From Ferrimonas balearica DSM 9799 (GTDB taxonomy: Bacteria; Pseudomonadota; Gammaproteobacteria; Enterobacterales; Shewanellaceae): DNA of 64,000 nucleotides. Positions 33,860 to 50,788 of this stretch are shown piece after piece. Both the position numbers and the translations under genes were made by a program. Position 1 is the stretch's first letter. Every line of letters begins with the position of its first letter. The stretch spans positions 1,488,001-1,552,000 of the forward strand of contig NC_014541.1 in NCBI RefSeq assembly GCF_000148645.1, written 5' to 3'. The notes beneath the pieces are model-generated. The model searched no databases. It saw only the letters and a list, made by a program, of their open reading frames with translations, and was not told the origin of the DNA.

Positions 33860-33871
33860 GTTCTGTCTCCC

Positions 33872-34822
33872 TTAGCGCTGAAGAGCCGAGCCATTGGGAT
33901 GGTTGGAACCATGCACCTGGCTGTGGCAGTTGAGGCAGCTCTTACCGGCAGTCATACGGTCTTCACCGGAGTTGAAGATCGGGCTACCGCTGTGAGGGCT
34001 GGCGTGACAGCTTTGGCACAGCTGCGGCGCACGCTGGGTCAGCATGGCGTCGTTTACGCTGCCGTGCGGGTTGTGACAGGCTGCGCAATCTTCGGCCACC
34101 GGCGCGTGCTCATACAGGAACGGGCCGCGCTTCTCCGCGTGACACTCGTAGCAGGTGTTGTTCACGGTGGTGCTGGTCAGCGCCGCTTCGCTCATGGAGC
34201 CGTGCGGGTTGTGACAGTCAGAACAGGTCATGTCCGCCCACTTCATCGGGTGGGAGGAGCGCTTGTTCATGTCCGCCTTCTGGCGGGTGTGACAGCTGGT
34301 GCAGGTCTCGACTTCGGTCTTGCGATCGAGGATCGGGTCCTGAGCAACGTGGACCTGGTGACAGGAGCTACAGGCAACCTCTTCGAGGTTGTGCACGGAG
34401 CTGTGCCAGGCCATGCGCTCTTCGCCCTGGTGACAGGACAGACACACGCTGTTTTGCTTTTCAGCGGAAAGCGGCGCGTTCTCACCAAAGGTGATCATCG
34501 GCTCTTTACCGCCACGGTTGTGGGTACCCATCGGGCCGTGACAGGCTTCACACTGAAGGCCAGCCATCGGGCTCTTGGATTGGTCGGCACGGCCGTGCAC
34601 GCCATCAAACAGGGCCATCACTTTTTCGGAGCGACGGTGGCACATCAGACAGTTGTCTGCGCCCTGCTTGGAGTAGTTACCCTCGGCGAACTTTTTGTCC
34701 AGTACCGCTTCAAACTCTTGCGGATCCATGTCGTCCCAGCTGCCAGCGACGGCCGGGCCACTCAGGCCCAGTGCCAGCACGGCGCTGCCAAGCAAGGTCG
34801 CGATCAGAGGTTTTGCTTGCAT
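33872..34822 (-). CDS. mtrA: Periplasmic decahaem cytochrome c MtrA
   Basis: A 316-residue DmsE/MtrA-family cytochrome. The signal peptide ends at GPAVAG. I count exactly ten CXXCH motifs: CLMCH, CEACH, CLSCH, CSSCH, CTSCH, CSDCH, CYECH, CAACH, CQSCH, CLNCH. It passes electrons from the periplasm into the MtrB barrel. It is very similar by eye to MtrD (48851-49816), especially in the last 100 residues. A stem-loop separates it from mtrC. Confidence 0.96.
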
Positions 34823-34883: not shown

Positions 34884-36821
34884 TTAGAAGCTGACGACGG
34901 TGTGGTTGTTCAGCTCAGGCTTGTGGCAGTAGAAGCAAGTTTCTACCTGGGCGCCAGCATCAGCCTGGTCACGCGGTACGTCCACCAGACCACCGCCAAC
35001 ATTGACGATGTGCTGCTGCAGGGTCTCACCGCCGGCCAGGGTGTCAGCCGGGTTGTGGCAAGAGATACAGGTGGCGGCACGCGGGGTGCTGTACAGGGCA
35101 GTACCGTCTTCGGCTGCACCGGTGTTCAGTGCGCCTTTCACGTTAAAGGAGCCCACTTCGAAGTCAGTGTGACACTGGGCACAGTCGGCCACGATCCACT
35201 GTTCGCCGTGCACTTTATGCAGTTTCAGCTCAATCGCACCCATGTTGGTCGGCGCGTAGGTGCCTTCCGGAGTGTGACAAGCGGCGCAGTCGCCCACTTT
35301 GATGTTGTCGTTGAGGACAAAACCAGCGTGGTGGCTGCCGTTATGCAGCTGGAAGGTTTCACCGTGGCAACCCAGGCAGCTGGCGTTGTCGAGGCTGTTG
35401 TGGCGCTCAGACAGAGCCGCGCCGGACTTGCTTACGAAGCTGGTGTAGGCGTCCAGGGCGATCTTGTCGGCGTTGTCGGAACACTCAGCCAGAACGCCGT
35501 TCTCGGCACAAACACGCACACCAACCATGGTCAGGGCAGTGTCGGCATCGCCTTCAGCAAACGGCAGCGCTTTGGTGGTGTAAACCACGCTGCCACCTTC
35601 GATGGCGGCGGCGATCTCTTCACCGTGGAACGCTTTGGAGTCTTTGCTGTAGTAGCCCAGTACCGGGAACTTCGGACCCACGTTGGACACGTACTCAACC
35701 ATATCCAGGCTGTTAACGACTGAACCAGCATCGATCGGCTGACCGTTCTCGGTCAGGTTCACGGAGATGGTCACGCTGTTGTCGGCGTTAACAACGGAGG
35801 TGGCGGTCATACCAAACTGTTCAACCACGGTAGCCTCATCCTGATGAGACTTCATGTGGATGGATTCGATCTGGGTCGGGTTGTGACAAGCGGCACAGGA
35901 GGAGTTGTCCTGTTCGGCCAGGTGGCGCAGGTGCACCACGTCTTTGCCATCGTAACCGTTGTTGTGACAAGCGGAGCAGGTTTCCTTGGTGGGAACGCGA
36001 GTCCAGTTGCCCCACTCAGCCAGCTCTTCGGAAGCGACGTGACAGGCTTGGCAGTTGTTCTGCAGCAGGGCTTCTGCCGCTTGACCAGTGTACTCGCGGT
36101 CGTTCTTGTCGGTGAAGGTGGCGGCGGTGTTGTGGATGGTGTGCACCAGATGCTGGAAGCTGGCACGCTTGCCAGTCATGCGATCTTCGTTGTGACAGTT
36201 GATGCAGGTTTCCGCTTCGAAGTAGCTGCTGTGACGGGTAGTCAGCGGCTCACCTTCTACGTGACAGGCGGTACAGGCGTCGTGGCTGATCACGTCTTTG
36301 GTGTACAGCGCGTCGTTGCCTTGACCGTCAAAGTCTTCGGAGATTTCGTTGCGGGGCACCGGGGTGCCGTCGGGGAGGGTGTTGTTACCGGCCAGAACGT
36401 TGTAACGCTGGGTCAGGTCACTGTTCTGTTCGATGCCTTCAAAGGAGAAGGTGTAGTAGCCGTTGCCGTGGTCTTCGTAGACCTTGCTGCTGCCAGCGCT
36501 GGCCCAGCGTGCGGAATCACCGGCCTGGAAGAAGCCTTGGGGGTAGAGTTGGAAGTTCTTCACTTCCATGCTCTGCAGGCCCACTACTGACTCGTCTTCC
36601 TCGTTGGTGGCCAGAACGGTCACCTGCGGTTGGCCATCAACGTACTCAACCTTGGTCACTTCCAGGTTCAGTTGCGCGATGGTTTCGGCGGGGTTACCAC
36701 CGGGGCGACCCGGGTCGCCGTCGTTGCCGTCGTTACCGTCATCGCCACAACCCACCAGAGCGGTGGCCATAATGGCGGCGCAGGCTGTCAGGCGCCATTG
36801 CATCTTGTTATTAGTCATCAT
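34884..36821 (-). CDS. mtrC: Surface decahaem c-type lipoprotein, MtrC position
   Basis: A 645-residue OmcA/MtrC-family cytochrome. The lipobox ATALVGC is followed by a collagen-like Gly-X-Y linker. A beta domain leads to haems 1-5 (CTACH, CINCH, CQACH, CSACH, CAACH; about residues 183-325). A second beta domain carrying a Cys pair precedes haems 6-10 (CLGCH, CAACH, CAQCH, CISCH, CFYCH; about 480-635). It is first of the mtrC-mtrA-mtrB unit, as in Shewanella. The start could be 36821 or the adjacent ATG at 36818. It is expected on the outer cell face as terminal reductase. Confidence 0.93.
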
Positions 36822-36917
36822 CTATTCCCTGCAAAAGAATATTGGGTACTCGTTGCCGAGTGACCGGACCGGGGGTTGGCCTTTCTGGCCTGTTATCTAC
36901 CCACAGAGTCACTGTGT

Positions 36918-36963
36918 GTTATATCAACTTGGCCCGCGACAAACCGTGATACAGATCAGCGAT
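36918..36963 (-). promoter_or_regulatory. Predicted mtrC promoter with CRP-type site at -41.5
   Basis: A CRP-type palindrome CGTGA-TACAGA-TCAGC (36945-36960, centre 36952.5) lies upstream of -10 TATAAC (minus strand, 36923-36918). The centre is 34.5 bases from the last base of the -10, placing it at -41.5 from the predicted start near 36911. Confidence 0.6.
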
Positions 36964-37062
36964 CTAGCGGCTTGTTTTTGTAGCGTTTTATAACTTTGCG
37001 CGGGCCCCGCCTCAGGGCCAGAACGTGATCCGGGTCGGTCCGGTTCCACGGAGCGTACAACG

Positions 37063-37086
37063 AAAAAGCGGCCCCGTAGGGCCGCT
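37063..37086 (-). terminator. Terminator after the stand-alone surface cytochrome (37105-39351)
   Basis: On the minus strand AGCGGCCC-tacg-GGGCCGCTTTTT forms a stem followed by T residues. Confidence 0.88.
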
Positions 37087-37104
37087 GATCATAACACCAC
37101 TGAC

Positions 37105-39351
37105 TCAGTTAAACTTGTGGTTTTTCTGAATGTTATCGGTGGTGTGGCAGGTGGCGCAGGACTCCGATACAGAGGCCTCTTCGCGGGTGCCTTTATGGAT
37201 GCCACCCATGTTGAGGATGTGGGCATCGGCAGCGGCGATCTTGGCGGCATCGAAGTAGGCGTCAGACAGGTGACAGGAGGCACAAACGGCGGTCTGCGGG
37301 CTGCTGTAGGTGCTGCTGCCGCTGAACTGCGGACCGGTGCTGACGTCATCCAGGGTGTAGCTGTTGTCGTGGCACACGGAACACTGGTTCATGCTGAAGA
37401 ACGCCTGTACATCCTCACGGCCATGGGCACGGACGCGGTCCATGGAGCTGGAGGCGTGTACGCGGGCCATCATGCTGGGCTTGTAGCCGTCAGCACCGTG
37501 GCACTGTGCACAGGTGTCGTTATCGGCGTTGCGGTAGTGGTAGCCGGAGCTGCGAACCACCATGTCATCAGTGTGACAAGCGGTGCAGTTCTCGTAGGCG
37601 GCTGCCGCATGACGACGAACTTCGCTGGCTTCACCGGCAACGGTCAGGTAACGGGTCTGAGACGCGTAGGGGCTGACCACGGCGGAGCACTGGCCATCAA
37701 CGTAATCGGTCAGGGCGTTGCTCTTGTTGCTGACGCAGGCATTGAAGTAGGCAGTCACGGCCAGAACATAGTCCTGGGCGGCTGTCGGGTTATCAATGTC
37801 ATTGAGCAGGGCAGCCAGGGTTTCGTGCGCCGGTACGGTTACGGTGCCAATACCGTTAGTGTTGACGGTGGCGGTGGCGTTGGAGCGGTTGGCCAGGAAC
37901 TGGCTGGAACCGTCGGCCGCGACAGCATTAACACGCACGGTAACGTTGCTCAGGGCGGAGCCGGAAACCGCTTCTTCGCCTTTGGTCACATTGAACTGAA
38001 TGTCGAAGTTGGTGCCATCCCAGCTCAGACCGGTGTAGTCAACGTCGATGTTGCTGCCCACGGTGGCGGCAGAGTGGCGACTCTCCATACCATGGTCAGA
38101 GAAGTGACGGAAGGCGCCACCACGGGTGTTGCCATCGTAGGAGCTGTGGCAGCTGATGCAGCCCTCTTCACGGTCACCGTAGTGGTAATCACCGTGGCAG
38201 TTCTGGCAGCTCTGCTTGTCCTGATCAGCAAACCAGTGCAGGGCGTGGTAGGTCACGTCCTCAGGCAGGGTCTCTTCAGTGGTGGTGTAATCCACGTGAC
38301 AGGCCAGGCAGTTGGCGGTGCTTTGCGGGTAAACCCCTTCCTCGTTGTTGAATTTGAGGAAGAACGCGGGGTTGGCTCCGTCTTTGGCGATCACGGAATC
38401 GAACTTGGCCACGCCGCGACGATCAGAGTGGGTGGCACCAGTGTGGATGGCGTGCACCAGACCCTTGATGGAGTGGGAGTACTCAATGGTGTTCTCACCA
38501 TCGGAAACGGTGCGAATGCCGTAATCGACGTGACAGAAAGCACACACTTCGGTGCTGGTGCCGTAGTGGGCGTTGCTCATCCGATAGGTGGGGTGTTCAT
38601 CCCGCGCGCTTTCGTACTGGTTGGCTTTCACATCCTCAGCGGTGTGACAAGCAAAGCAGGTCTGGTCAGCCAGAACGGTTTTCGGGCGCTCCGCTTCAAC
38701 ATTGCCCGCTTCCCAGTAGTAGGTGGCGTAGTGGGTGGCATCGTAGTCGGTCTTGTCGCCGGCCAGCTTGCGCTGTACCCGCATCATGACACCCTGCACC
38801 TGGCTGTCGTCGTAGGCGAAGAAGAACTCTGCACCGCCCTCCTCTTTGGTGGTCGGCAGCGCGTGATCGACGACAAAACGGTACTTGCCGGTCTCGATCT
38901 CCTCTACGGAGCACTCGTTGTAGGGGGTGTAGGAGGTGTTGCACATGGAGGCGCTGCCCCGGGTGCCATTGCGGTGATGGTAGCTGGCCCAGATCTCGCG
39001 GTTGTGAAGCGGTTCCGCCATCGGCTGGACGTCATCGCGTGTCGCTTCGCTCTCCAGCGCCATACGGCCCATCTTGAGGGTCAGGTTGTCGATGGTGGCA
39101 CCGTGAATGGCAACGCCATTGGTGTTCACCAGATCAAACTCCACCACCAGTTGGTTGCTTTCAGCGCTGTACTCCGCAAACAAGTTGCTGGTGTTCAGGC
39201 TGTCGGCTTGGCTGATGTGGACGCCGATGGGGCCCGGCTTGCCGTCTTCGCCATCGGAACCGTCCTTACCATCGCTGCCACAGCCGGCCAGCAAAGCGGA
39301 CACCGCCAGCGCGGACGCCAGCTTTTTCCAGTTGTTGTTATGGTCGCTCAT
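37105..39351 (-). CDS. Surface decahaem c-type lipoprotein (OmcA/MtrC family), stand-alone
   Basis: A 748-residue outer membrane cytochrome. The lipobox SALLAGC is followed by six Gly-X-Y triplets. Haems 1-5 are CFACH, CAFCH, CLACH, CQNCH, CISCH; haems 6-10 are CTACH, CAQCH, CSVCH, CASCH, CATCH. Between them is a beta domain containing a Cys pair. The ATG at 39351 is chosen because the upstream in-frame ATG lies inside the AGGGAAAAG Shine-Dalgarno. It has its own promoter and terminator. By position it matches the omcA slot of Shewanella, but orthology is not proven. Confidence 0.93.
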   Translation of the reverse strand: MSDHNNNWKKLASALAVSALLAGCGSDGKDGSDGEDGKPGPIGVHISQADSLNTSNLFAEYSAESNQLVVEFDLVNTNGVAIHGATIDNLTLKMGRMALESEATRDDVQPMAEPLHNREIWASYHHRNGTRGSASMCNTSYTPYNECSVEEIETGKYRFVVDHALPTTKEEGGAEFFFAYDDSQVQGVMMRVQRKLAGDKTDYDATHYATYYWEAGNVEAERPKTVLADQTCFACHTAEDVKANQYESARDEHPTYRMSNAHYGTSTEVCAFCHVDYGIRTVSDGENTIEYSHSIKGLVHAIHTGATHSDRRGVAKFDSVIAKDGANPAFFLKFNNEEGVYPQSTANCLACHVDYTTTEETLPEDVTYHALHWFADQDKQSCQNCHGDYHYGDREEGCISCHSSYDGNTRGGAFRHFSDHGMESRHSAATVGSNIDVDYTGLSWDGTNFDIQFNVTKGEEAVSGSALSNVTVRVNAVAADGSSQFLANRSNATATVNTNGIGTVTVPAHETLAALLNDIDNPTAAQDYVLAVTAYFNACVSNKSNALTDYVDGQCSAVVSPYASQTRYLTVAGEASEVRRHAAAAYENCTACHTDDMVVRSSGYHYRNADNDTCAQCHGADGYKPSMMARVHASSSMDRVRAHGREDVQAFFSMNQCSVCHDNSYTLDDVSTGPQFSGSSTYSSPQTAVCASCHLSDAYFDAAKIAAADAHILNMGGIHKGTREEASVSESCATCHTTDNIQKNHKFN

Positions 39352-39425
39352 CTCTTTTCCCTGCAAATTGAAAAGAACTTTTTGTTAATTGCCCGCCATC
39401 GTTAGAGAAAACGGGTCGATGCCAG

Positions 39426-39471
39426 AGTCTAGGGAAGCCCTAACAGGGGTAACGTGATCGCGATAACGCTC
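39426..39471 (-). promoter_or_regulatory. Predicted promoter with CRP-type site at -41.5 (upstream of 37105-39351)
   Basis: Palindrome CGTGA-TCGCGA-TAACG (39453-39468, centre 39460.5) and -10 TAGACT (minus strand, 39431-39426). The centre lies 34.5 bases from the -10 end, as at mtrC. The predicted start near 39419 gives a leader of about 68 bases. Confidence 0.55.
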
Positions 39472-39727
39472 ACTAAAGCCCTGAGGTGTATCGAAAATGT
39501 TTCGCCTGACCAGCCCCGTTACCTTTGGGCGAAAGAAAAGCCGAGGGCACGGGCAGGGAGGGGCGAATAAACCCGGTCGGGGAAGTGATGGCTGTTATGG
39601 CAGGGTTATCGGGGTGGCGAAAAGGTGAGCAAAGCTTGGCGGGCCACTCTGTGACCGTTGTGCACAGGTTATTCCGGGCCGGGGTGATCAGGATCGCAAA
39701 AGCCGCAATCCAACATTCTTAAGGGCG
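39472..39727. other. Non-coding spacer between two surface cytochrome genes
   Basis: No gene or palindrome is supported here. A short plus-strand open frame lacks a Shine-Dalgarno and looks spurious. Confidence 0.4.
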
Positions 39728-39757
39728 AAAAAAAGCGACCCGATTGGGTCGCTTTTT
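39728..39757 (-). terminator. Terminator after the surface cytochrome (39775-41988)
   Basis: On the minus strand AAAAAGCGACCC pairs with GGGTCGCTTTT around AATC, with further T residues. Confidence 0.9.
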
Positions 39758-39774
39758 GCAGTCAGACGAAGCGC

Positions 39775-41988
39775 TTAGTTACCGTGCAACGCGCGGATCT
39801 GATCCGGGTTGTGGCAGGTTGCGCAGCTTTCTGCGGCGTTGGCTTCAACGAACGCCTTGTCGCTGCTCAGTACAGCGCCGTAGGTCTCGATGTGAGCTTT
39901 GCCGGAGTCAGACAGGTACTTCATGTGGCAGCTCAGACAGGCGCCAGCATCAGAAGATACCCACAGGTCCTGACCATTTGCGTCGGCGTAACGCCATACC
40001 CGCTCGGGCGCACGGCCCAGAGCAATGCCGTCTACCTTGTCAGTTTTGGCGTGACAGGTGGAACAGTCGGTCTTGAGTACAGTGCCAGTCCCGGCGCCGC
40101 CATATTTCAGGTAGTGACCTTCTGCGTGGTGAGCTTTGTAGGCAAAGCTGGTCGGCTCTTTAGTTGCACCGTAGGACAGGCCTTTGTCCGGAGTGTGGCA
40201 GGCTTGACAGTTTACGCCGTTGTCGTAGTGAACAATCTCTTGATTGTGACAGCCCTGACATTTGGCCACGTCAATGATTTCACGACGCTCGGTAGCCGCT
40301 TCAGTGGTATCAACACCGTTCCAGACGAAGCGCAGCGGCTCATCCTGGATGTAGGCGAAGGTCACTTCGCTTTCGGTGCTGTCACAAGCGATGGGTTCAA
40401 CAACAGGACGCCCGTAACCGCCTTTCTTAAAGCAGGTGGCAACGCCAGCATACAGCTCAACATTTTGGCCATTCATTTCATCTGGCAGAACCAGGTTGCG
40501 GTTGGCGCTACTGATTGAGAAGGTCTTGGTGGTTTCGTTGTAGCTGGAAACTTGCTCATCGGTGAGAGCAAATCCGCGATCGCTGTACTTAGATCCATCC
40601 TGGTAAGTCGGGTAATCCTTCTCAATATCCCAGGAGATGTAGATGCTGGATTTGGTGTACATGCTCGGGTTGGCAATGAACTCTTTAGCAACGGCTTCGC
40701 CCTTGTCATCCAGGATCTGAACGTCGAAGGTCAGAACACCGTTCTCAGCCTTAACTTTGCTGAACTCAGCGGAGTAGCCCAGGCTGGCGTTGTAGCTCTT
40801 CATTACATCGCCATGAGCTTCTTCTGCGCTGCGAGCGTAGCCCTCAGCAACGTGGCAGGAGATACAGTCGCGGTTTTCCGGATCGTGGTACTTCTTCGGA
40901 TTGGTGGTGTGGCAAGCAATACAGGCTTCGTTGCTCTTGTCTGCTTTAAACAGAGCAGCATCCGCAGGAGCGCCTTCACCCTCTACGTGACATGCAGCAC
41001 AATCGGCAGCCGGTTTCTGGGGATACATTACCTTGCTGTAATCGTGCTCAGAGCCTTTGTAGCCAATCACGATGTAAGGAGCCGGGATCATGCCTTTGGC
41101 ATCCGCATCCGGGTGATCCGGTGCGTAAGTTTTACGGTCCTTGCCCTTGTGAATAGCGTGAATCATGTAAGTAAAGTCAACGCTATTGCCGGACTCCGGA
41201 TCGCCGGAGGTGGCCGTGTGGCAGGAGGCGCAGTTTTCGATATCGATGCGACGGCCGCCATGCAAAGCGAGGCTATCGGGCTGGTGGCAGGTATAACAGG
41301 CTTCGATGCTGACGACATCGCGAGTCTGAATGTCGTCGGTCATACCGGTGGAGGGCTGCCAGTCATAGTGACCATTGGCAACAGTTTGGGGCAGCTCCAG
41401 CTCCAGAGTGGCGCGATGGGTTGCTTCGCCGTTGTAAACCACCTCAAGAGGTTCGGTCACGCTGGCAACATTGATCTGGTAAGTGTAGGTATAGGTACCA
41501 TTACCATGATCGGTGAGGCAGTCCTCACAGCTGGAAGCCTTTTCAACGCCAGCCTGGAACTGGGCGCTGGGGTTCAAATGAGTGGTGTCTTCCGGGAGGT
41601 CACCCGGTTGCTTCTCACTATTGATGTAAGCTTGCCACTGATAACCGCGGTCTTGTTCAACTCCCTCTTCGGCGCCAGGCATGGCTTCAGTTACATGTGC
41701 CAACTGGGCGATACCAAAGCGTAGGTCATCGTCTTTAGTCAGACCATACAGCCCAACGCCGTTGGCATTTTCGAGGGTGAACTCAACGGTAACGGTACCG
41801 TTTTCAATTTGGGCATCGGTGAAGTGCGCAACGACAGTCGGGCTTTCACTTATATGAATACCAACCGGACCCGGCTTGCCGTCTTCACCGTTAGAGCCAT
41901 CACTACCATCACTGCCACAGCCGGACAGTGCGAGGGAAACCATGGCCGCGCTGGCCAGCAGTTTCCAGTTTTGTTTTGTTGTTGTCAT
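39775..41988 (-). CDS. Surface decahaem c-type lipoprotein (OmcA/MtrC family), stand-alone
   Basis: A 737-residue outer membrane cytochrome. The lipobox SLALSGC leads into six Gly-X-Y triplets nearly identical in pattern to those of the neighbour at 37105-39351. Haems 1-5 are CYTCH, CASCH, CAACH, CIACH, CISCH; haems 6-10 are CQGCH, CQACH, CSTCH, CLSCH, CATCH. An extra SSCEDCLTD Cys pair lies before the first haem. The true start is the ATG at 41988; the upstream in-frame ATG is part of the TTTGCAGGGAA leader. It is monocistronic. Confidence 0.93.
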   Translation of the reverse strand: MTTTKQNWKLLASAAMVSLALSGCGSDGSDGSNGEDGKPGPVGIHISESPTVVAHFTDAQIENGTVTVEFTLENANGVGLYGLTKDDDLRFGIAQLAHVTEAMPGAEEGVEQDRGYQWQAYINSEKQPGDLPEDTTHLNPSAQFQAGVEKASSCEDCLTDHGNGTYTYTYQINVASVTEPLEVVYNGEATHRATLELELPQTVANGHYDWQPSTGMTDDIQTRDVVSIEACYTCHQPDSLALHGGRRIDIENCASCHTATSGDPESGNSVDFTYMIHAIHKGKDRKTYAPDHPDADAKGMIPAPYIVIGYKGSEHDYSKVMYPQKPAADCAACHVEGEGAPADAALFKADKSNEACIACHTTNPKKYHDPENRDCISCHVAEGYARSAEEAHGDVMKSYNASLGYSAEFSKVKAENGVLTFDVQILDDKGEAVAKEFIANPSMYTKSSIYISWDIEKDYPTYQDGSKYSDRGFALTDEQVSSYNETTKTFSISSANRNLVLPDEMNGQNVELYAGVATCFKKGGYGRPVVEPIACDSTESEVTFAYIQDEPLRFVWNGVDTTEAATERREIIDVAKCQGCHNQEIVHYDNGVNCQACHTPDKGLSYGATKEPTSFAYKAHHAEGHYLKYGGAGTGTVLKTDCSTCHAKTDKVDGIALGRAPERVWRYADANGQDLWVSSDAGACLSCHMKYLSDSGKAHIETYGAVLSSDKAFVEANAAESCATCHNPDQIRALHGN

Positions 41989-42061
41989 CTCTATTCCCTG
42001 CAAATGAGAAACGATGTCTTTAAGTTGTTCTCACGACGGCGTGTATACCGCCGCACTGGTG

Positions 42062-42107
42062 AGTCTACGGGTGGCAGGTCAAAATAAATGTGACCGTGTT
42101 AACAAAG
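42062..42107 (-). promoter_or_regulatory. Predicted promoter with CRP-type site at -41.5 (upstream of 39775-41988)
   Basis: Palindrome TGTGA-CCGTGT-TAACA with A-rich flanks (42089-42104, centre 42096.5) and -10 TAGACT (minus strand, 42067-42062). The spacing is the same 34.5 bases. The predicted start near 42055 gives a leader of about 67 bases. Confidence 0.6.
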
Positions 42108-42264
42108 GTGGGCAGATGGAACGGCGAAAAATCCTCAAGGTAAACAAAGGTGTGATGCAGATTTCAGTGCTGCTTTTGAGGTGGGAAAAAGGTTTCCGGG
42201 ATGAGCGTTCGGTAAACAGTTGGCACAAAGTGATGACCGGGCGCTAACCCGGGAAACAGGCATG

Positions 42265-42291
42265 AAAAAAGGGGCCATCTGGCCCCTTTTT
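42265..42291 (-). terminator. Terminator after the undecahaem gene
   Basis: On the minus strand AAAAAGGGGCC pairs with GGCCCCTTTTT around AGAT. It ends the mtrDEF-undecahaem operon. Confidence 0.92.
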
Positions 42292-42305
42292 GGTTCGACT
42301 GATGC

Positions 42306-44750
42306 TCAGTCCAGCCCGTGCACCACGTCGTAGCCGGCACTGCGCCCGGCATCGTGGCAGGTGGCACAGGTTTCTGCCGCTTCGGTGGGCACATATTGAC
42401 CCGGTGTTCCGGCATAGACCCCACCATTTTGACGGAAGTGAGCCACCGCGGACGGATTGGCCTCTTCAGAGGTGGCGTGACAGCTGGCACAGGCCGCCAC
42501 TGCGGGTGAGAACTCACCGTCTGCGGCGCTGAATGCTGGCAGCGAGGCCATGGCAGACAGGCTGATCTGGCCGTCAGCGTGGCAGGTGGTGCAGTTAGCC
42601 GAGCTGTCCGGGTAGGTGATGGCCAGGTCGGTATTGCGACGCGCCGAGCGGGTACCCGCATGGATCTCGTGGATCATCACCTTGTACTCGAAGCCCTGGG
42701 AGAACGGCTTATTGGCGTGGGCCGAGCCGTTCGGGTTGTGGCAGGCCACACAGCTGCCATCGGTCAGCAGTACCGCGGTGTTCGGGGTGCCGGCGTGGCA
42801 GGAACCACAGGCGCTGTCCGGCGGATAGGTCTCATCGCCACGGGTGTTAACGTGGCTGGAGGAGAAGTCCGCCTGCTCGGCGTGACAGTTGACACAGCCC
42901 ATCTCAATGGCGGCTACGCGACGCATCATGACGTCACTGCCATCGGCAGAGAAGCTGGCCTTATTGCCGGCCACGATGGCGTCGATCACCCGTGCATCCG
43001 GACTGTCACAGGCCACCGGCACCAGAGTGCTGGTGTCGAGGTTGGTGATGCCGGCATTGGCGCAGACAAAGAGTTTGCCGTCGAGGAAGCCCTGAGCGGT
43101 GGCGGTAAACAGGTCATGCACCGTGGGGTCGATGCCGGTGACGGTGTAGGTAAAGCCACCCTCTGCGGCCGTTGAGGTGATGGTGCCACCGGAATTGGCG
43201 GTTTTCAGGTTGAACGCGATGCGTGACTTGTGACGGCCGTAGGCACTGGCGGTGTCGGCACGGACGCCACCAAGGTCATACTCACTGCCATTAAACGCGG
43301 CGGCGGTGACCCAGAACTCAGAGACGTTCGGGTCCATCTCCGGCGCCATGGTGCCTGCCCAGTTCAGGGTAAAGGTCAGGGTACCGGTGGCGGCGTCGAA
43401 ACTGCCGTTGCCCAGAGTGTAAGTGTACGCTTCGCGGGCATTGGCGGTGGCGTCGGCCTTGGCGAGGTGGTAAATGGCTGAGCCTTCGGGGTTGGTGTCG
43501 TCAGCGTGACAGCCGGCGCAGTTACCCTCGGCAAACGGGGTAAAGCCTTCGCTGTGGAACAGGCCGCGGGCGGTGCCATCCCAGTCCGCCGGAGCGAACT
43601 TTTCGTGGCAGCTCAGGCAGGCTTCCTGGCGATGGAAATACCAGTTGTTGGCCTGGGCTGGGGCATCCTCACCATCGAGGTGGCACACCTTACAGTCGTT
43701 GCCGTTGGCCGGGAAGGTGACTTCGCGGTAATCCTGACCGTTGCCCCTGAAGCCGATCATAAAGTACTCGGCCTTGTGGATCTGGTGCAGCATCGAGCCC
43801 AGATCGATGGTGGCGCCGGTCTCCGGGTCGCCCGAGTAGGGGGTGTGACACACGGTGCAGTTTTCCACTTCAAAGCGGGCACCACCGTGGAGGATCAACG
43901 GGTGGGCGGCGCTGTTGTCGTAGTCGTTGCTGTGGCAGCGCAGACAGGCCTGCTCCAGCACCACCAACTCGCGGGTGTCTGCGGCTTCCGCCATCGCGCC
44001 GGTGGCGGGGATAAAGTCGTAGTGGGCATTCACCAATGCGGCCGCGACATCCCCCCGGAAGCGACGCAGTTCCATGGTGACCCGGTGGGTCAGGTTGGCG
44101 TCATAGCTGGTATCGAGCCCGGTGATGGCCGGGTATTCCGACAGCGCGGTGGGGAAGGTGTATCGGTAGCTGCCGTTGCCGGTTGCTTCGAGACACTCGG
44201 TGGTGCATCCGGTTTCAATGCCCGCCTGGATCTGCGGCCCTTTCAGCGCGTCCCAGCCCTCCGGGAAGGTGTCTTCGACATTCACCTCGCCCGGTTCAAC
44301 CACACGGTTGATGTAGCTGGTCCACTGGGTCGACTTGGTGCCTTTGCCACTGCCATCCTCGGCACTGCCATCACTGGGCAGCGGTCGCAGTCGTTTCTGC
44401 AGGGTGGTGAGCTTGGCGATCCCCATGCCGATGCGATCCAGCTCGGCGTAGCTTTCCAGTCCAGAGATGGCCACGCCGTTGGCGTTGGTCAGATCGAAAT
44501 CCACCATCACCATGCCGGCATCATCGATGGTGACACCGGTAATGGTGGCATTGAGGCTGTTGGCGGCGGCGACGTCAATGCTGACTTCGCCCGGGGGCCC
44601 CTCGGGCCCGTCCGCGCCATCGTCACCGTCGTCGGGACAGCCGGTCAGGGTCAGAGCCAGGGTCGCGGTGGCCAGCAGGGTGCGCCAGGGCGCCAGGGGA
44701 GTGGATGGGTTCATAAGGCGGTCCTGTTGTCGGTTAAACCAAGTGGTCAT
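42306..44750 (-). CDS. Surface undecahaem c-type lipoprotein (UndA-like)
   Basis: An 814-residue member of the OmcA/MtrC family with eleven CXXCH motifs: CLRCH, CTVCH, CKVCH, CLSCH, CAGCH in the first group, and CVNCH, CGSCH, CVACH, CTTCH, CASCH, CATCH in the second. A 5+6 arrangement is reminiscent of Shewanella UndA. The lipobox LTLTGC is followed by PDDGDDGADGPEGPPG. A CTTEC pair lies before haem 1. The ATG at 44750 has a perfect AAGGAG; an internal ATG at 44714 is also possible. It starts 10 bases after mtrF and is the last gene of that operon. Confidence 0.92.
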   Translation of the reverse strand: MTTWFNRQQDRLMNPSTPLAPWRTLLATATLALTLTGCPDDGDDGADGPEGPPGEVSIDVAAANSLNATITGVTIDDAGMVMVDFDLTNANGVAISGLESYAELDRIGMGIAKLTTLQKRLRPLPSDGSAEDGSGKGTKSTQWTSYINRVVEPGEVNVEDTFPEGWDALKGPQIQAGIETGCTTECLEATGNGSYRYTFPTALSEYPAITGLDTSYDANLTHRVTMELRRFRGDVAAALVNAHYDFIPATGAMAEAADTRELVVLEQACLRCHSNDYDNSAAHPLILHGGARFEVENCTVCHTPYSGDPETGATIDLGSMLHQIHKAEYFMIGFRGNGQDYREVTFPANGNDCKVCHLDGEDAPAQANNWYFHRQEACLSCHEKFAPADWDGTARGLFHSEGFTPFAEGNCAGCHADDTNPEGSAIYHLAKADATANAREAYTYTLGNGSFDAATGTLTFTLNWAGTMAPEMDPNVSEFWVTAAAFNGSEYDLGGVRADTASAYGRHKSRIAFNLKTANSGGTITSTAAEGGFTYTVTGIDPTVHDLFTATAQGFLDGKLFVCANAGITNLDTSTLVPVACDSPDARVIDAIVAGNKASFSADGSDVMMRRVAAIEMGCVNCHAEQADFSSSHVNTRGDETYPPDSACGSCHAGTPNTAVLLTDGSCVACHNPNGSAHANKPFSQGFEYKVMIHEIHAGTRSARRNTDLAITYPDSSANCTTCHADGQISLSAMASLPAFSAADGEFSPAVAACASCHATSEEANPSAVAHFRQNGGVYAGTPGQYVPTEAAETCATCHDAGRSAGYDVVHGLD

Positions 44751-44760
44751 GGGCGACTCC

Positions 44761-46707
44761 TTATTGGGCCGGGGCCAGTCCGTGGGCCGGTGCGACGTCA
44801 TAGCTGCGACCCGGGCCATGGCAGGTGGCACAGCCCTTATCGCCAGCGGCCATATCAAAATCACCGCCAAATACCGCGCCCTGTTGGGTCATGTGACCCT
44901 GGGCAGACGCGCTGCTGTGGCAGACGGCACAGGTGGCCGCTTCGAGGCTGGTGAAGGTGCCGTCATCCAGTGCCATCGGCGGCAGGGACGTCAGCAGGGG
45001 CAGGGCAAAGCTGTCGCCCTCATCCCCGGAAATGTGGCATTGGCGGCAGTTCCCCACCGGTGCCGGGTAGACCAACTCCTCATACCCTGCGCGCTGGCCG
45101 GTATGAATGGCGTGGATCATATGGCTGTAGTTGGCGTTGGTGGCGGAGACGTTGTCTGCGCCTGCGGTTGCCACCATCTGGCCGTTATGGCAGAGCTGGC
45201 ACTGCTGGCTCAGGTCATTGCGGGCGCCGTGGAAGTTCAGCTGTTGGTCACCATGGCAGCTGCCACAGGTTTCGTTGCTGACCACATCGCGGCGTGCCGT
45301 ACCGGTTCCCGCGGTGAAGAACTCGGTAAAGCTGGCGATGGGGGTTGTCTGGGCGTTGGCATCCTCGCAGGGCACCAAGGTGTCACCGCTGCGGCAGATC
45401 CGTCCCTGCATGGCCACTGCGCCACCCTGGTCGGCTTCTGTGCCTGGCGGAATGGTCAGGCCCGGCAGGGTGTACTGGTATTGGCCGGGGCCCAGGACGG
45501 TGTCCGGAGTCAGGCTTTCCAATCGGATGTTGGGGGCCGAGGTGGTGCTGTAGTCAAAGCTGGTGCCCCAGTTGGCATAGAGGCGCAGATCATTGACGTA
45601 GGGCAGTTGGTCAGGACTGCTCAGGGCTTCGCCGGTGACCGGGTTGCTGAGGTTCACCACGATACTGAGACTGGCGGCGGCCGGGTCAAAGGTGATGCTC
45701 TCGATGGTGGCACTGAACTGCCCCAATGCGTCCGCTTTGGCGGTTTGCAGATGGGCACTGCGGGTCCAGTCCGGGTTATGACAAGCGACACAGTTGCTGT
45801 TGTCGGCCTGAGCCGGGTGACCCACACCCGCCACAAAGTCGATGTTGCTGTGGCAGCTGCCGCACGCCAGTTGGCTTGGGAACAGGGCCCAGTTGTCGGA
45901 CTCCGGCAAGGCTTCGCCGCCGGTGTGGCAGGTTTCGCAATTCAGGAAGTTGGCCAGTTCGCTTTGGCCGTGTGCGGAGTGGGCCAGGCCGGACAGCACG
46001 TTGGCCGGATTGGAGATGCGGTTGTCGGCGTGGCAGACGGTGCAGGTCTCCAGCTCGGTGTAGCGGCCGCCATGACGGACACTGCCCAGATCGGTATGGC
46101 AGCTCTCGCAGCTTTCAGTGGCGGCAATCAGGCGGGTGTAGTGGGGATCACTGTTCGGGGGCGTGAAATCCACAAAAGTGTTCACCACCGGCAGCGCCGT
46201 GCCATCGGGCAGGGCATCCCCGCCCACCTTCACCACCAGACGCTGAGTGGCGTCAGCGCTGTACTCGACACCGTTCGCATCGTTCACGCTGAACTGGGTC
46301 TGGTAGTCGTAGAAGCCGTTGCCAAAGTCGGTCCAGACGCCGGGGCACTCGCCCTGTGGCGTGCAGGTTTCCGAGCCGAGGAAGCGCCATTCACTGCTGT
46401 TGCCGGCGCCGGTAAACCCGGTGGGCAACAGTTGGGCAGCCAGAATCACGGCACTGGGCAGGCCGGCAACCCCTTCGTCATTCTGGTTGGTCACCAGCAG
46501 TCGGAGTGTGAACTGGCCATCCTCGTTGATGGCATAGCGCTCAATGTTGGCGTTGATCTCGGTGACCTCCTGAGCCGGAGGCGGTGTGTCCGGACCAGAC
46601 GGCCCCTGGGCGCCGTCATTGCCGTCTTTACAGGCGCTCAGCAGGCTCAGCGCCATCACTCCGGCCAGCAGGAGACGCAGGGAGGAGAGGTCACTTCCAG
46701 TTTTCAT
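44761..46707 (-). CDS. mtrF: Surface decahaem c-type lipoprotein, MtrF position
   Basis: A 648-residue OmcA/MtrC-family cytochrome. The lipobox LSLLSAC is followed by a short Gly-rich linker. Haems 1-5 are CESCH, CTVCH, CETCH, CGSCH, CVACH; haems 6-10 are CGSCH, CQLCH, CRQCH, CAVCH, CATCH. Non-haem Cys pairs (ETCTPQGEC and ICRSGDTLVPC) lie in the beta domains. I place the start at ATG 46707 with AAGGAG upstream; a start at 46770 would overlap mtrE and precede the signal peptide. Symbol by synteny with mtrD-mtrE-mtrF. Confidence 0.92.
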   Translation of the reverse strand: MKTGSDLSSLRLLLAGVMALSLLSACKDGNDGAQGPSGPDTPPPAQEVTEINANIERYAINEDGQFTLRLLVTNQNDEGVAGLPSAVILAAQLLPTGFTGAGNSSEWRFLGSETCTPQGECPGVWTDFGNGFYDYQTQFSVNDANGVEYSADATQRLVVKVGGDALPDGTALPVVNTFVDFTPPNSDPHYTRLIAATESCESCHTDLGSVRHGGRYTELETCTVCHADNRISNPANVLSGLAHSAHGQSELANFLNCETCHTGGEALPESDNWALFPSQLACGSCHSNIDFVAGVGHPAQADNSNCVACHNPDWTRSAHLQTAKADALGQFSATIESITFDPAAASLSIVVNLSNPVTGEALSSPDQLPYVNDLRLYANWGTSFDYSTTSAPNIRLESLTPDTVLGPGQYQYTLPGLTIPPGTEADQGGAVAMQGRICRSGDTLVPCEDANAQTTPIASFTEFFTAGTGTARRDVVSNETCGSCHGDQQLNFHGARNDLSQQCQLCHNGQMVATAGADNVSATNANYSHMIHAIHTGQRAGYEELVYPAPVGNCRQCHISGDEGDSFALPLLTSLPPMALDDGTFTSLEAATCAVCHSSASAQGHMTQQGAVFGGDFDMAAGDKGCATCHGPGRSYDVAPAHGLAPAQ

Positions 46708-46759
46708 GTCACGGGCTCCTTGTGCACGTGGCCCTGTTGCGGCTTTCGGGGCGTCGAAC

Positions 46760-48838
46760 TTAAAACTCATGGCGGTAACTCAGGTTCAGCCGGTAGTCAT
46801 CGTAGTCGTGGGACAGGTCGCCAAAGGTCAGCACGTTGCTGATGCTGTTCGGGTCGAGTCCCAGATTGAGATAGCTGCGGTCTTCGTAGTCCTGGTACAG
46901 CAGATCGAGCTGGACGCTGGAACGTTCACTCAGGTGATAACGGCTGTAGAGGTCCAGCGTGGTGCGGGTGGCGTCATAGGGGCCCAACTCACTGCCCAGG
47001 CCACTCTCGATCTCGGTGACGGTGTCGCTGTCAGCCCAGACCAGGTTGGCACCCAGATCAAGGCGGTCATCGAAGGCGCCGCGGTATTCCAGATTAAGGC
47101 CCGCGGACTGGGCATCGTCGTCCTGCCGTCCCCGCCACTGGGCGCCGGTATTGCTGCCCACCTGACGGGTATCGATGTTGTAGGCGTTGTAGAACACCGA
47201 TGCGGTGAACTTCTCACGGTAATAGCTGAGGTTGACGTCATAGCCGCTGCGTTCTACTTCATCGAGTCCCACTTGCGAGTCGTCATAGTCGGAGTCGCTG
47301 CCCTCCAGCGTCAGTTGCAGGCTGAGCGGCTCGATGATCTGGTAGTTGGCCACCAGCTTGGCGTAGGCGTGATCGCGACTGGCCAGGTAGTAGTGGCGCA
47401 GGGCGCTGTCATTGATGCTGTCGCTGTTGGGGGTACCAAGGTAGTTGTCCAGATCACGGTTCTCGCCGCCCAGTTCCAGCCGGATGGCGAGGGGTTCCCA
47501 CTGATTCAGGCGCAGGATGCCCCAATAGGCGTTGGTGGTGGCCTGATCGCCGGGCTGTGCGGTCCACTCCTGCTGGCGCCAGCGGTAACCAAGCTCGCCA
47601 CTGAAACCACGGTAGAAACGGTAGTTCATCGACAGGCTGGCTTTCTGGTCTGTGGTGTCCAGCTCCACCGGTACCCGGCTCCCTGCCGGCACGCTGTCGG
47701 TGATGATGTAGGGGTAGGCCTGCAGCGGGTTGTCGTAGTCCCGGTCCTGATAGTCGTATTGAGCCAGCAGCGTCATTTTGCGCATGGGGCGGATGCGGTA
47801 GCGCAGGTTGAAGTCAATTTTGTCCAGCTGCAGGTCGGCATCCGTCGCCGGCAGGGCAGGCGCGGGGCCGGTGATGGTGGCGGGCAGGAAGGCGTCATCC
47901 TGATCGTGCCGGCCCCAAACCAACTGGCCCGATACCGACTGGATGCCAGCGGCCCAGGTGCCCTGGATATGGAACTGGTGGGCGCTGTTGTCCGGTGCGA
48001 CCGATTGCTGTCCGGCGCGGGCGGCGCCGAAGGTTGGGGTGTAGGGGTTATCCCAGCGTTGGGCATCGAGGTCGTTGTCGTACTGGCTGCCCAGGTAGCC
48101 AAAGGCCACCTGCCACTGGCCGCCGACGACGTTCAACCCAGCCGCAACCGATGTGGTGTTGTCGTCCACCCGCTCAGGCAGGTTGACGGCGTTGCTGATC
48201 AGGGTGGCGCCACTTTGGCGATGGCCGGTTCGTGCTTCGTGCTTCACATCCAGGTAGGTGCGGATCTGATTGAAGTACTTCTCCAGCCCTAAGGCGAATT
48301 GGTCCCGCTCTATTTTGAGGTCGACCGGGTTCAGCGGCCCGGTTAACCCGGGCATCTGAGCGGTGGTGCCCCCTTCAACCCAGTCCCCCGGCAGGGTGTG
48401 GGTGCCCCGGTTGCCGTTGAATGGCGTGCGTACGGTGTTGCCGAACCAGGCCAGTTGACGCCAGGACAGCAGCGCGGCGAAGTCGCGGGCACGGTCAGCA
48501 CTCAGTGACAGGGTACTGACGTCATAGCCCAGCTGGTCGATCAGCAGCTGAGTGCGGATGTCGTTGCTGTACCATTGGGTCACATCGGCATCCAGTCGCG
48601 GCACCAGTCCGTCGGTGTCGGTGCCGCTCTCATTGGCAAAGTGGATGTCGCTGATGCTGTTCTCGGTAATCCCGATGGCGAACCCGCCGGAGGTGCCCAT
48701 CTGCGGTGTGCAGCGCTCACACTGCCACTGCTCGGTGTTCGCCGTGGCGGTATTGGCGCGGTTGAGGCTGAAATCGGCACCACTGACTGCGGGGGAGAGG
48801 ACGAGGCCGATTAGGGTAGCCAGTAGCGATCTTTGCAT
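46760..48838 (-). CDS. mtrE: MtrB-type outer membrane beta-barrel, MtrE position
   Basis: A 692-residue barrel, paralogue of MtrB. The signal peptide is MQRSLLATLIGLVLSPAVSG. The CERC pair is at residues 40 and 43, exactly where CKRC stands in MtrB. The protein ends in YRHEF with a terminal Phe, as barrels do. ATG 48838 is preferred over the GTG 9 bases upstream because GGGAG then has an 8-base spacing. It follows mtrD by 12 bases. Confidence 0.92.
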   Translation of the reverse strand: MQRSLLATLIGLVLSPAVSGADFSLNRANTATANTEQWQCERCTPQMGTSGGFAIGITENSISDIHFANESGTDTDGLVPRLDADVTQWYSNDIRTQLLIDQLGYDVSTLSLSADRARDFAALLSWRQLAWFGNTVRTPFNGNRGTHTLPGDWVEGGTTAQMPGLTGPLNPVDLKIERDQFALGLEKYFNQIRTYLDVKHEARTGHRQSGATLISNAVNLPERVDDNTTSVAAGLNVVGGQWQVAFGYLGSQYDNDLDAQRWDNPYTPTFGAARAGQQSVAPDNSAHQFHIQGTWAAGIQSVSGQLVWGRHDQDDAFLPATITGPAPALPATDADLQLDKIDFNLRYRIRPMRKMTLLAQYDYQDRDYDNPLQAYPYIITDSVPAGSRVPVELDTTDQKASLSMNYRFYRGFSGELGYRWRQQEWTAQPGDQATTNAYWGILRLNQWEPLAIRLELGGENRDLDNYLGTPNSDSINDSALRHYYLASRDHAYAKLVANYQIIEPLSLQLTLEGSDSDYDDSQVGLDEVERSGYDVNLSYYREKFTASVFYNAYNIDTRQVGSNTGAQWRGRQDDDAQSAGLNLEYRGAFDDRLDLGANLVWADSDTVTEIESGLGSELGPYDATRTTLDLYSRYHLSERSSVQLDLLYQDYEDRSYLNLGLDPNSISNVLTFGDLSHDYDDYRLNLSYRHEF

Positions 48839-48850
48839 CTTGGACACTCC

Positions 48851-49816
48851 CTATCGTTGCAGCAGCTTGCCAGATGGATGGTTGGAACCATGCACCTGGT
48901 TGTGACAGTTGAGGCAGCTCTGGCCGGCCGTAAAGGCGCTGTTGCCACCCTGGAACTGGGGTGAACCGGAGTGCGGGCTGGCGTGACAGCTTTGGCACAG
49001 CTGCGGTGGTCGCTGGGTCAGCATCGCGTCATTCACGCTGCCGTGCGGGTTGTGGCAGGCCGCGCAGTTATCACTGACCGGCGCGTGCTCCCACAGCAGC
49101 GGGCCACGCTTCTCCGCATGGCAGGCGTAGCAGTTGTCATTGACAGAAACCTGGCTGAGCATGGCGTCGTTCAGGCTGCCGTGGGGGTTGTGGCAATCGA
49201 CACAGGTGATCTGGCCGGTGCGCATCGGGTGTGAAGAGCGCTGCTGCATCTGGGCAAATTGCTGACGATGGCAATCGGTGCAGTTGGCCTGGGCCTGCAG
49301 TTTGTCGCGGCTGGGGTCCTGAGCGGCGTGGACGTTGTGGCAACTGCTGCACGCCACCTCTTCGATATCGTGAGTGCTGCCGTGCCAGGCCAGTCGGTCG
49401 TCGCCGCTGTGGCAACTCAGACAAACGGAGTTCTGTGCTGAGGCACTGACTCTGGAATCCGGGCCGAAGGTGATCATCGGCTCCTTGCCGCCTCGATTGT
49501 GGTTGCCCTGAGGGCCGTGACAGGCTTCGCACTGCAGTTGGCCGGGGGCCATGGGGCTGGCAGGGTTGCTGGTGCGGCCGTGAACACCATCAAACAGGGC
49601 CATCACCGTTTCACTTCGGCGGTGGCACATCAGGCAGTTGTCAGCACCTTTGGCGGAGTACTTTCCTTCGGCAAACTTCTCTACCAGGATCGTTTCCAAC
49701 TCCGCTTCGCTGAGTTCCTCCCAGGCCGCACTGGCCCAAAACGAAGACAGCAACAGGCATGTCAGCAGCACCACCTGAGTGAGGTGGAGGGCCAACGGGC
49801 TCACACGTATCATCAT
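48851..49816 (-). CDS. mtrD: Periplasmic decahaem cytochrome c, MtrD position
   Basis: A 321-residue DmsE/MtrA-family cytochrome and paralogue of MtrA. The signal peptide ends near WASAAW. Ten CXXCH motifs: CLMCH, CEACH, CLSCH, CSSCH, CTDCH, CVDCH, CYACH, CAACH, CQSCH, CLNCH. It is the first gene of the mtrD-mtrE-mtrF-undecahaem operon. Two adjacent ATGs (49816 and 49813) follow the AGGGAAA; the second has better spacing. Confidence 0.95.
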   Translation of the reverse strand: MMIRVSPLALHLTQVVLLTCLLLSSFWASAAWEELSEAELETILVEKFAEGKYSAKGADNCLMCHRRSETVMALFDGVHGRTSNPASPMAPGQLQCEACHGPQGNHNRGGKEPMITFGPDSRVSASAQNSVCLSCHSGDDRLAWHGSTHDIEEVACSSCHNVHAAQDPSRDKLQAQANCTDCHRQQFAQMQQRSSHPMRTGQITCVDCHNPHGSLNDAMLSQVSVNDNCYACHAEKRGPLLWEHAPVSDNCAACHNPHGSVNDAMLTQRPPQLCQSCHASPHSGSPQFQGGNSAFTAGQSCLNCHNQVHGSNHPSGKLLQR

Positions 49817-49869
49817 TTTCCCTGCATCCTTGGCACTTATGGTTTTTGTTCTCGCGGCGTGAATCCGCA

Positions 49870-49889
49870 GTTAACAAAGGGTTAAGCTA
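49870..49889 (-). promoter_or_regulatory. Possible ArcA-like direct repeat and extended -10 upstream of mtrD
   Basis: On the minus strand two TTAAC repeats stand exactly 11 bases apart (49885-49881 and 49874-49870), the spacing used by ArcA. The first touches a possible extended -10 (TGC-TAGCTT, ending at 49884). Both assignments are tentative. Confidence 0.35.
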
Positions 49890-50087
49890 GCACAAATACC
49901 CAGTCGAACTAGGTTCTTTTTGGTGAAATTTTGCGAAAGGTATGGCTGGGCAGGGTGAGGTTCTGTTTTTGAGCGGGTGGGTGAAATGTGCGGCAGCTCC
50001 CGCTTATTGCGGCATCAACGGCTGTTCGAATGCGGGTTAATGTGCAAACAAATTCTCCAATGTGAATTCGTTCCATTGGATTCCCAG
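49890..50087. other. Divergent non-coding region between mtrD and napC1, with inverted repeat
   Basis: No gene is seen. The only notable structure is TCCAATG (50056-50062) and CATTGGA (50074-50080) separated by 11 bases, 10 bases upstream of the CRP-type site. It could bind a dimeric regulator. Confidence 0.45.
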
Positions 50088-50133
50088 AAGTGTGATTGTA
50101 ATCATTAATTTACTCATCGCCCCTCAGTACAAT
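50088..50133 (+). promoter_or_regulatory. Predicted napC1 promoter with CRP-type site at -41.5
   Basis: Palindrome TGTGA-TTGTAA-TCATT (50091-50106, centre 50098.5) and -10 TACAAT (50128-50133). The centre lies 34.5 bases from the end of the -10, at -41.5 from the predicted start near 50140. The leader would be about 73 bases. Confidence 0.65.
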
Positions 50134-50212: not shown

Positions 50213-50788
50213 ATGCAAGATCGTAACGAACAGAGTGGTTGGGCCAAGCTGTGGCGCCAGCCCAAGGCAAAGTGGCTGCTGGGTATTCCGGTAGGTGCTT
50301 TCCTGTTCCTGGCCATCGGTGCTGTAGGTACCGTTGGTTTTAACACCGTTATTCACGCTACCAGCACCGACGCTTTCTGTGTGAACTGTCACGTACCTTC
50401 CTACGCTCAGGAAGAGTTCAAGCAGTCCGTTCACGGCTCCAGCCGTTCCGGTATGGTAGTGAACTGTGCTGACTGTCACGTCGCCAAAGAGTTCGTGCCG
50501 AAGATGTGGCGTAAGATCACTGCCATGAAAGAGGTTTACTGGCAGATCAAGGGTGACTACAACACCCCGGAAGCCTACGCCGAGCACAAGAAAGACATGC
50601 AGGCCCGTATCGTGGAAGGTTTCCGCGCTACCGACTCTCGCGAGTGCCGCAACTGTCACGATGTTGAGCGCATGAACTTCGACAAGCAGAAGAAGATGGC
50701 TGCCAACATGCACCAGCGTATGGACAAGATGGGTAAGACCTGTATCGATTGTCACGCTGGCAAGATCGCTCACGACCGCGCTAAGTAA
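50213..50788 (+). CDS. NapC/NirT-family membrane-anchored tetrahaem quinol dehydrogenase (napC1)
   Basis: A 191-residue cytochrome with one N-terminal membrane helix (about residues 22-42) and four haem sites: CVNCH, CADCH, CRNCH, CIDCH. It would oxidise menaquinol and feed periplasmic MtrA/MtrD, the role CymA plays in Shewanella. By eye the sequence (TDSRECRNCH, GKTCIDCHAG) is closer to NapC/NirT than to CymA, so I give no symbol. It is monocistronic with a strong terminator. Its codon usage looks highly optimised, suggesting high expression. Confidence 0.93.
   Translation: MQDRNEQSGWAKLWRQPKAKWLLGIPVGAFLFLAIGAVGTVGFNTVIHATSTDAFCVNCHVPSYAQEEFKQSVHGSSRSGMVVNCADCHVAKEFVPKMWRKITAMKEVYWQIKGDYNTPEAYAEHKKDMQARIVEGFRATDSRECRNCHDVERMNFDKQKKMAANMHQRMDKMGKTCIDCHAGKIAHDRAK

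Follow-up and report, generated by a model that had tools for sequence, protein, structure and literature searches.

Four cytochrome promoters of Ferrimonas balearica share one CRP-site spacing that predicts class II activation

In Shewanella oneidensis, CRP activates the cytochrome genes omcA and mtrC, as demonstrated by gel shift, by a crp mutant and by promoter deletions (Kasai et al., 2015; PMC4417206). According to that report, the CRP sites of strain MR-1 lie at -61.5 (omcA) and -60.5 (mtrC), that is, in class I position; the mtrC fragment that was shifted spans -143 to +117, a wide stretch in which the site was assigned by sequence (PMC4417206). The present analysis concerns a 64,000-nucleotide stretch of the single-contig genome of Ferrimonas balearica DSM 9799 (positions 1488001-1552000 of 4,279,159 bases; hereafter the window), in which four cytochrome genes, napC1, mtrC, omcX and omcY, are each preceded by a CRP-type site at one and the same distance from a -10-like hexamer, an arrangement that points to class II promoters. 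In E. coli, the class II position of CRP is -41.5, and the Ferrimonas promoters resemble the class II CRP promoters of that organism in having a site that overlaps the -35 region, a good -10, a poor -35 and the same CRP recognition helix, although the Ferrimonas sites are further from consensus. CRP control of these genes is thus known from Shewanella, and the Ferrimonas arrangement seems to be a class II form of this known control; no description of a class II layout in Ferrimonas was found among the papers listed in searches of the open-licence literature, where the one listed paper on Ferrimonas and CRP to contain every term sought (PMC5357785) concerns a Shewanella strain.

All four 16-mers of the original prediction are present in the window at the predicted places, each occurring there once and each accompanied by its -10-like hexamer, and the distance of 34.5 bases from the site centre to the end of the -10 proved to be the same in all four promoters. 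The napC1 promoter, on the plus strand, combines TGTGA-N6-TCAT (50091..50106, centre 50098.5) with TACAAT (50128..50133), and the three remaining promoters lie on the minus strand, with their sites given here as read on the coding strand. For mtrC, the site is CTGAT-N5-TCAC (36945..36960, centre 36952.5) and the hexamer TATAAC (36918..36923), directly 5' of which stands a TGA, a TGN element that, going by the consensus, makes this an extended -10. The omcX promoter carries CGTTATCGCGATCACG (39453..39468, centre 39460.5) and the omcY promoter TGTTAACACGGTCACA (42089..42104, centre 42096.5), both followed by TAGACT (39426..39431 and 42062..42067, respectively). With start sites inferred from the -10-like hexamers, a site centre 34.5 bases from the -10 end would correspond to -41.5, the class II position.

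The evidence that carries this reading comes from relatives of the organism. Forty-five homologous promoters were collected from 14 genomes of the genus (14 for mtrC, 14 for the gene at the omcX position, 5 for omcY and 12 for napC1), picked by protein homology alone and never by motif. Sites were scored against TGTGA-N6-TCACA (of 10), and a joint match was defined as a site of at least 7/10 with a -10 of at least 4/6. By this measure, 33 of the 45 promoters have a joint match at exactly 34.5, compared with 0-11 at the 46 other testable spacings; with a stricter cut (site 8/10, -10 5/6) the figures are 16 versus at most 1 elsewhere, and after thinning to 8 genomes they are 15 of 24 versus 0-7 at 45 other spacings. 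The set includes species whose MtrC is 39-51% identical, and in anchored alignments of the divergent genomes the half-sites and the -10 are the main conserved columns, with the centre of the site largely free to vary. The constrained positions are TGTGA-N6-TCAT and TA.AAT in napC1, CTGAT-N5-TCAC and AAGTTGNTATAA in mtrC, and GATCAC at the omcX position, where the alignment rows contain mispicked sites in several genomes; the omcY rows are from close relatives, with nearly every base conserved. On this comparison with relatives, and not on a bulk scan, the shared architecture is judged to be real.

Gene by gene, conservation is strongest for napC1, whose TGTGA-N6-TCA site and -10 recur at the same spacing in all 12 genomes with a napC1-like match (CGTGA in two), the hexamer reading TANAAT in 11 and TAAACT in one; no napC1-like match was found in the stretches taken from the other two genomes, G006 and G010. 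The mtrC site stands at the exact spacing in 12 of the 14 genomes, of which G007 and G013 have only a 6/10 site, and TGN-TATAA, as read from the alignment, is present in all 12. At the omcX position, TAGACT is kept in G002, G003 and G011 and is replaced by TAAACT in G007; in five further genomes (G004, G005, G008, G009 and G012) the site is GTTGA-N6-TCACG and the hexamer, TATCTT, lies one base further away, G006 combines TGTTAAGTTGATCACA (9/10) and, at the exact spacing, TAGTTT (3/6), and no such site is found in G010. The omcY site and its TAGACT hexamer are both kept in G002, G003 and G011, with a site of only 6/10 in G007. Upstream of the omcX site lies a distal CRP-like site, TGCGATCCTGATCACC (39683..39698, minus strand, 8/10), which is discernible in all five aligned genomes and scores 9/10 in G003 and G007, and omcY likewise has a second CRP-like match, TGAAATCTGCATCACA (42151..42166, minus strand, 8/10), adjoined by a TCACACCTTTGTTTACC block that is kept in G002 and G011 and partly in G003. 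A GAAACATTTTCGATACA-type block 5' of the omcX site (39487-39503) is kept in four genomes.

The regulator required by such promoters is encoded in the genome. CRP is identified by an NCBIfam equivalog match of 400.6 bits (cut-off 266), and in the alignment with the solved CRP chain 6dt4 its recognition helix and the stretches of activating regions AR1 and AR2 are identical; further CRP/CAP entries fit almost as well as 6dt4. An adenylate cyclase is also encoded (PF01295, 729.7 bits), as is a canonical Fnr (NF008365, 461.2 bits). Seven Crp/Fnr-type helix-turn-helix matches occur in the genome, of which five were compared with NCBIfam, the two left out being under the Pfam cut-off; the three proteins other than CRP and Fnr fall under every NCBIfam cut-off listed.

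Taken together, the conservation of half-sites and -10 at a fixed spacing and the presence of a canonical CRP bear out the proposal that the four are class II CRP-dependent promoters, a prediction to which we would give a probability of roughly 0.8. In the mechanism so predicted, high cyclic AMP (cAMP) would place a CRP dimer on the imperfect TGTGA-N6-TCACA site, with the downstream half over the -35 region, and CRP would aid the binding of RNA polymerase to a -10 that lacks a good -35 partner, supplemented at mtrC by the TGN of the putative extended -10. One signal could thereby raise the quinol-oxidising cytochrome NapC1, the MtrCAB conduit and the stand-alone surface cytochromes jointly. 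What the DNA shows directly is the sites, their spacing and conservation, and the genes for CRP and adenylate cyclase; from these we infer where transcription begins, that CRP binds, that cAMP is needed and in which direction expression changes, whereas in S. oneidensis CRP binding and crp dependence were shown by experiment.

Compared with the omcA and mtrC promoters of S. oneidensis, the Ferrimonas promoters serve the same genes, have the same regulator as far as sequence can tell, and share half-palindromic sites in which TCACA faces the promoter, a weak -10 (TAGCCT there, TAGACT at omcX and omcY) and extra upstream control. The difference lies in the position of the site, which is class I in S. 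oneidensis and predicted class II in Ferrimonas; the Shewanella precedent invoked in the original prediction thus holds for the regulator and not for the layout. The difference can be seen in two other genera of the family, of which 21 mtrC loci were surveyed, 19 in genus g2 and 2 in genus g5 (L108-L128). We assume genus g2 to be Shewanella, since the AGAAATAG..GATC..TCACA block given by Kasai et al. (2015) is present in its promoters. With TCACA as the anchor, a TANNNT hexamer (TAGCCT, TAGCAT, TAACCT, TAATCT and similar) stands at +19 relative to the Ferrimonas spacing, equivalent to the -60.5 assigned to mtrC of S. oneidensis, in all 19 g2 loci, several of which have the same TAGCCT as that species, and none of the 19 has a -10-like TANNNT at the distance seen in Ferrimonas; the two g5 loci have no comparable site. 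Conversely, the class I offsets of +19 and +20 occur in 6 and 3 of the 45 Ferrimonas promoters, with no excess over other spacings. It seems, therefore, that CRP has been kept as the regulator of mtrC, with a different type of promoter in each genus. If Ferrimonas does use class II activation, the regulator would have been kept and its contact with RNA polymerase changed, through a shift of about two helical turns.

A number of observations weigh against the class II CRP reading, beginning with those that could make the four sites a chance selection from many weak matches. Two of the four window sites score merely 7/10 and two of the four hexamers merely 4/6, and the four sites by themselves are weak evidence that would not reach significance. 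In a bulk sample of 464 kb (the window and 20 stretches of 20 kb, seven of which were aimed at cytochrome clusters), every 400 bases of one strand contain on average 1.07 site matches of at least 7/10, and a 400-base region contains 0.019 joint matches at the exact spacing. There is no preference in this sample for the spacing of 34.5 (49 joint matches, against 23-63 at 28 other spacings), nor is there enrichment ahead of genes, where 7 of the 147 upstream regions sampled have the exact spacing and the other spacings score 0-11; omcX and napC1 are excluded from these regions, shadow open reading frames having been picked there. The genome scan that had been proposed as a check on the prediction thus finds the spacing no commoner than chance in the bulk sample and gives the claim no help; at its thresholds, the scan counts mostly noise. 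A strict consensus pattern run over the 14 genomes yields 48 matches, versus 7 with a reversed-pattern control, of which 10 have the exact length; counted by eye, napC1 orthologues make up nine of these, and there is no enrichment otherwise. The comparison with the other genera is likewise narrower in a blind scan of the 21 loci, in which +19 leads by 20 to 19 over +14 (site 7/10, -10 3/6), by 11 to 10 over +25 (8/10, 3/6), and comes second to +38 by 9 to 10 (7/10, 4/6); the TCACA-anchored count is the firmer one. Within the genus, the mtrC site is missing from G006 and G010, and the omcX-position site stands at the exact spacing in only 7 of 14 genomes. In addition, it is unlikely that CRP is the sole regulator at omcX, because other upstream blocks are conserved there too. 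Nevertheless, recurrence of the same spacing in the majority of homologous promoters, even where MtrC has diverged to 39-51% identity, makes an origin by chance very improbable.

Two further explanations accept the sites as functional. That their shared geometry reflects a single promoter duplicated along with the cytochrome genes, and not selected co-regulation, is unlikely overall, even though several features speak for it at omcX and omcY, which have TAGACT in common, nearly equal distances from the site to the start of the TTG open reading frame (94 versus 93), and leaders and signal peptides that resemble one another. That close relatives do not provide independent evidence, and that omcX and omcY may owe their spacing to one ancestral promoter, also counts against the class II CRP reading. 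The duplication account fits the other promoters less well: the mtrC -10 differs, and napC1 is unrelated, lies on the other strand and has its better half-site upstream, whereas in the cytochromes it is downstream. Common descent and co-regulation can both hold. Less probable still, we consider, is that FNR (EtrA), alone or together with CRP, acts at the sites, so that the signal would be oxygen loss and not cAMP. A canonical Fnr is encoded, TGA-N6-TCA is common to CRP and FNR sites, the T after the CTGA half of mtrC is present in 12 of 12 genomes, and class II spacing would suit FNR equally well. In 36 sites, which were chosen by CRP score and so lean towards CRP, the CRP base accounts for 46 of the 72 cases at the two positions that discriminate between the regulators and the FNR base for 2, with neither in 24; of the FNR consensus TTGAT-N4-ATCAA, the T at position 2 and the A at position 15 are each found in one of the 36. 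Matching to the whole consensus is indecisive: CRP gives the better fit in 16 sites and FNR in 5, with 15 ties. FNR does at least as well in 20 of the 36, a point against CRP as the regulator. The assignment of the sites to CRP and not FNR in the original prediction is upheld by the discriminating bases and left undecided by the whole-consensus counts. Furthermore, the inner T or A favoured by FNR has been lost from napC1 in several species in which TGTGA is kept, and the activator demonstrated in Shewanella is CRP (PMC4417206). On balance, CRP is favoured over FNR at these sites.

As to the extent of the class II CRP regulon so predicted, three of the seven geometry matches among the 147 upstream regions precede decaheme cytochromes (Fisher p 0.002), in a sample that is biased towards cytochrome clusters, another point to be set against the reading. 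One of these three, a fifth surface cytochrome, outside the window (L089:8753-10951, i.e. G000:C1:3639753-3641951), shows the same layout, with a TGCGA-N6-TCAA site and TATGGT/TATTTT/TATCTT at the exact spacing, kept in G002 and G003 with the spacing counted by hand. No such geometry was found within the 147 regions 5' of the mtrA2 operon, of omcZ or of the cytochromes in L088 and L091, and a plasmid search with the mtrC promoter gave no match. The predicted regulon would take in napC1, where electrons probably enter, along with one or more cytochromes encoded outside the window.

A second shared feature of these genes lies at the ribosome-binding site, where TGCAGGGA stands 4-8 bases 5' of the ATG of mtrC (36826..36833), omcX (39358..39365), omcY (41995..42002) and mtrA2, of the second conduit in the window (49819..49826), all on the minus strand. 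The pattern has 19 matches genome-wide, five of them at these four genes, and among the others just three kinds open frames longer than 100 amino acids (104, 119 and 192), none with CXXCH. In 12 g2 genomes, a slightly stricter pattern gives 30 matches, of which those with long frames represent, by our own count, 14 distinct genes spread over 10 of these genomes, each with CXXCH motifs and, as in MtrC or OmcA, a start of lipoprotein type; the remaining matches open frames shorter than 40 amino acids, frames being ended at the locus boundary. Ahead of the mtrC ATG, GCAGGGA is found in 13 of the 14 Ferrimonas-genus genomes and in all 21 loci of the two other genera, with the full TGCAGGGA in 20 of these 21, while genes within the operons of the mtr cluster mostly lack the leader. 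In Ferrimonas and the 12 g2 genomes, the leader is thus found almost exclusively at surface-cytochrome genes. At L130-L132 (G000:C1:525142-525652), TGCAGGGAGGTAAAGGATG recurs at intervals of 246 bases in three or more copies, apparently as a tandem repeat.

The leader contains CAGGGA, which we take to fit the CsrA core CARGGA, and CsrA is encoded in the genome. Single-sequence folds around the leader differ between genes and genera, and a conserved hairpin is unproven. In Geobacter, CsrA sites are predicted in 5' leaders, in another organism and with another motif (PMC11934962). Among the matches listed in literature searches, no title on cytochrome leaders was found for GCAGGGA with Shewanella, and no leader report for CsrA with mtrC and Shewanella. 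A further regulatory layer is described for the Shewanella cytochromes mtrC and cymA, which are under RyhB/Fur control, in an account that, in the parts considered, does not mention the TGCAGGGA leader (PMC5826389). Ferrimonas appears to differ in this respect, and RyhB is not supported as a reader of the leader: RF00057 has no match in the genome at E 0.001, with 150 of 770 first-look candidates scored. No Rfam family reaches its gathering threshold over window positions 30000-56000. The leader motif represents a concrete candidate for post-transcriptional control of metal respiration.

At omcY (39775-42104, including the promoter), promoter and coding sequence differ in their conservation. 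Its promoter and leader (120 bases upstream) are 93, 84 and 91% identical to those of G002, G003 and G011, and its first 75 coding bases 97, 83 and 96% identical, whereas the rest of the protein is merely 36-39% identical to its counterparts in these genomes. At this position, the whole proteins of G002 and G011 are 86% identical to one another and those of G002 and G003 77%; the omcY protein of the window is closer to versions in G007, G001 and G010 (54-56%). Evidently, to judge from these identities, the body of omcY was swapped behind a conserved promoter, leader and signal peptide. Tentatively, and with no great confidence, the surface cytochromes of the family might be viewed as an exchangeable cassette under two layers of control, namely a CRP promoter, of class II in Ferrimonas and of class I in Shewanella, and a TGCAGGGA leader at the ribosome-binding site, perhaps read by CsrA or a small RNA, with bodies swapped behind promoter, leader and signal peptide. 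If so, a newly gained cytochrome would come under control immediately.

The genes downstream of the four promoters are assigned as follows. On the minus strand, mtrC (34884..36821; TIGR03507, 217.6 bits, cut-off 209.3) is the first gene of mtrC-mtrA1-mtrB1, and mtrA1 (33872-34822; TIGR03508) and mtrB1 (31871-33859; TIGR03509), both over their cut-offs, presumably belong to the mtrC operon (31871..34822 for the two). The stand-alone genes omcX (37105..39351; TIGR03507, E 1.1e-31, under the cut-off), with a lipoprotein-type signal, and omcY (39775..41988; TIGR03507, 404.6 bits), also on the minus strand, encode decaheme surface cytochromes of the OmcA/MtrC type, and their true starts are probably the ATG codons at 39351 and 41988, 15 bases inside the listed TTG open reading frames. 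The second conduit in the window comprises omcZ-omcW-mtrB2-mtrA2. On the plus strand, napC1 (50213..50788) encodes a NapC/NirT-family cytochrome (NCBIfam TIGR02161, E 1.3e-51, under the curated cut-off) that we take to be CymA-like, and is followed 3' by feoB and two more napC-like genes, feoB and the later napC labels having been assigned by eye. A contig titled Marinobacter nauticus (L001, NZ_JAHVJZ010000011.1) carries a napC1 that is 97% identical to that of the window, and the title is probably wrong. In G003 (L069 16867-17403), the conserved napC1 promoter likewise stands ahead of a different body, a napC-like gene that is only 38% identical to napC1.

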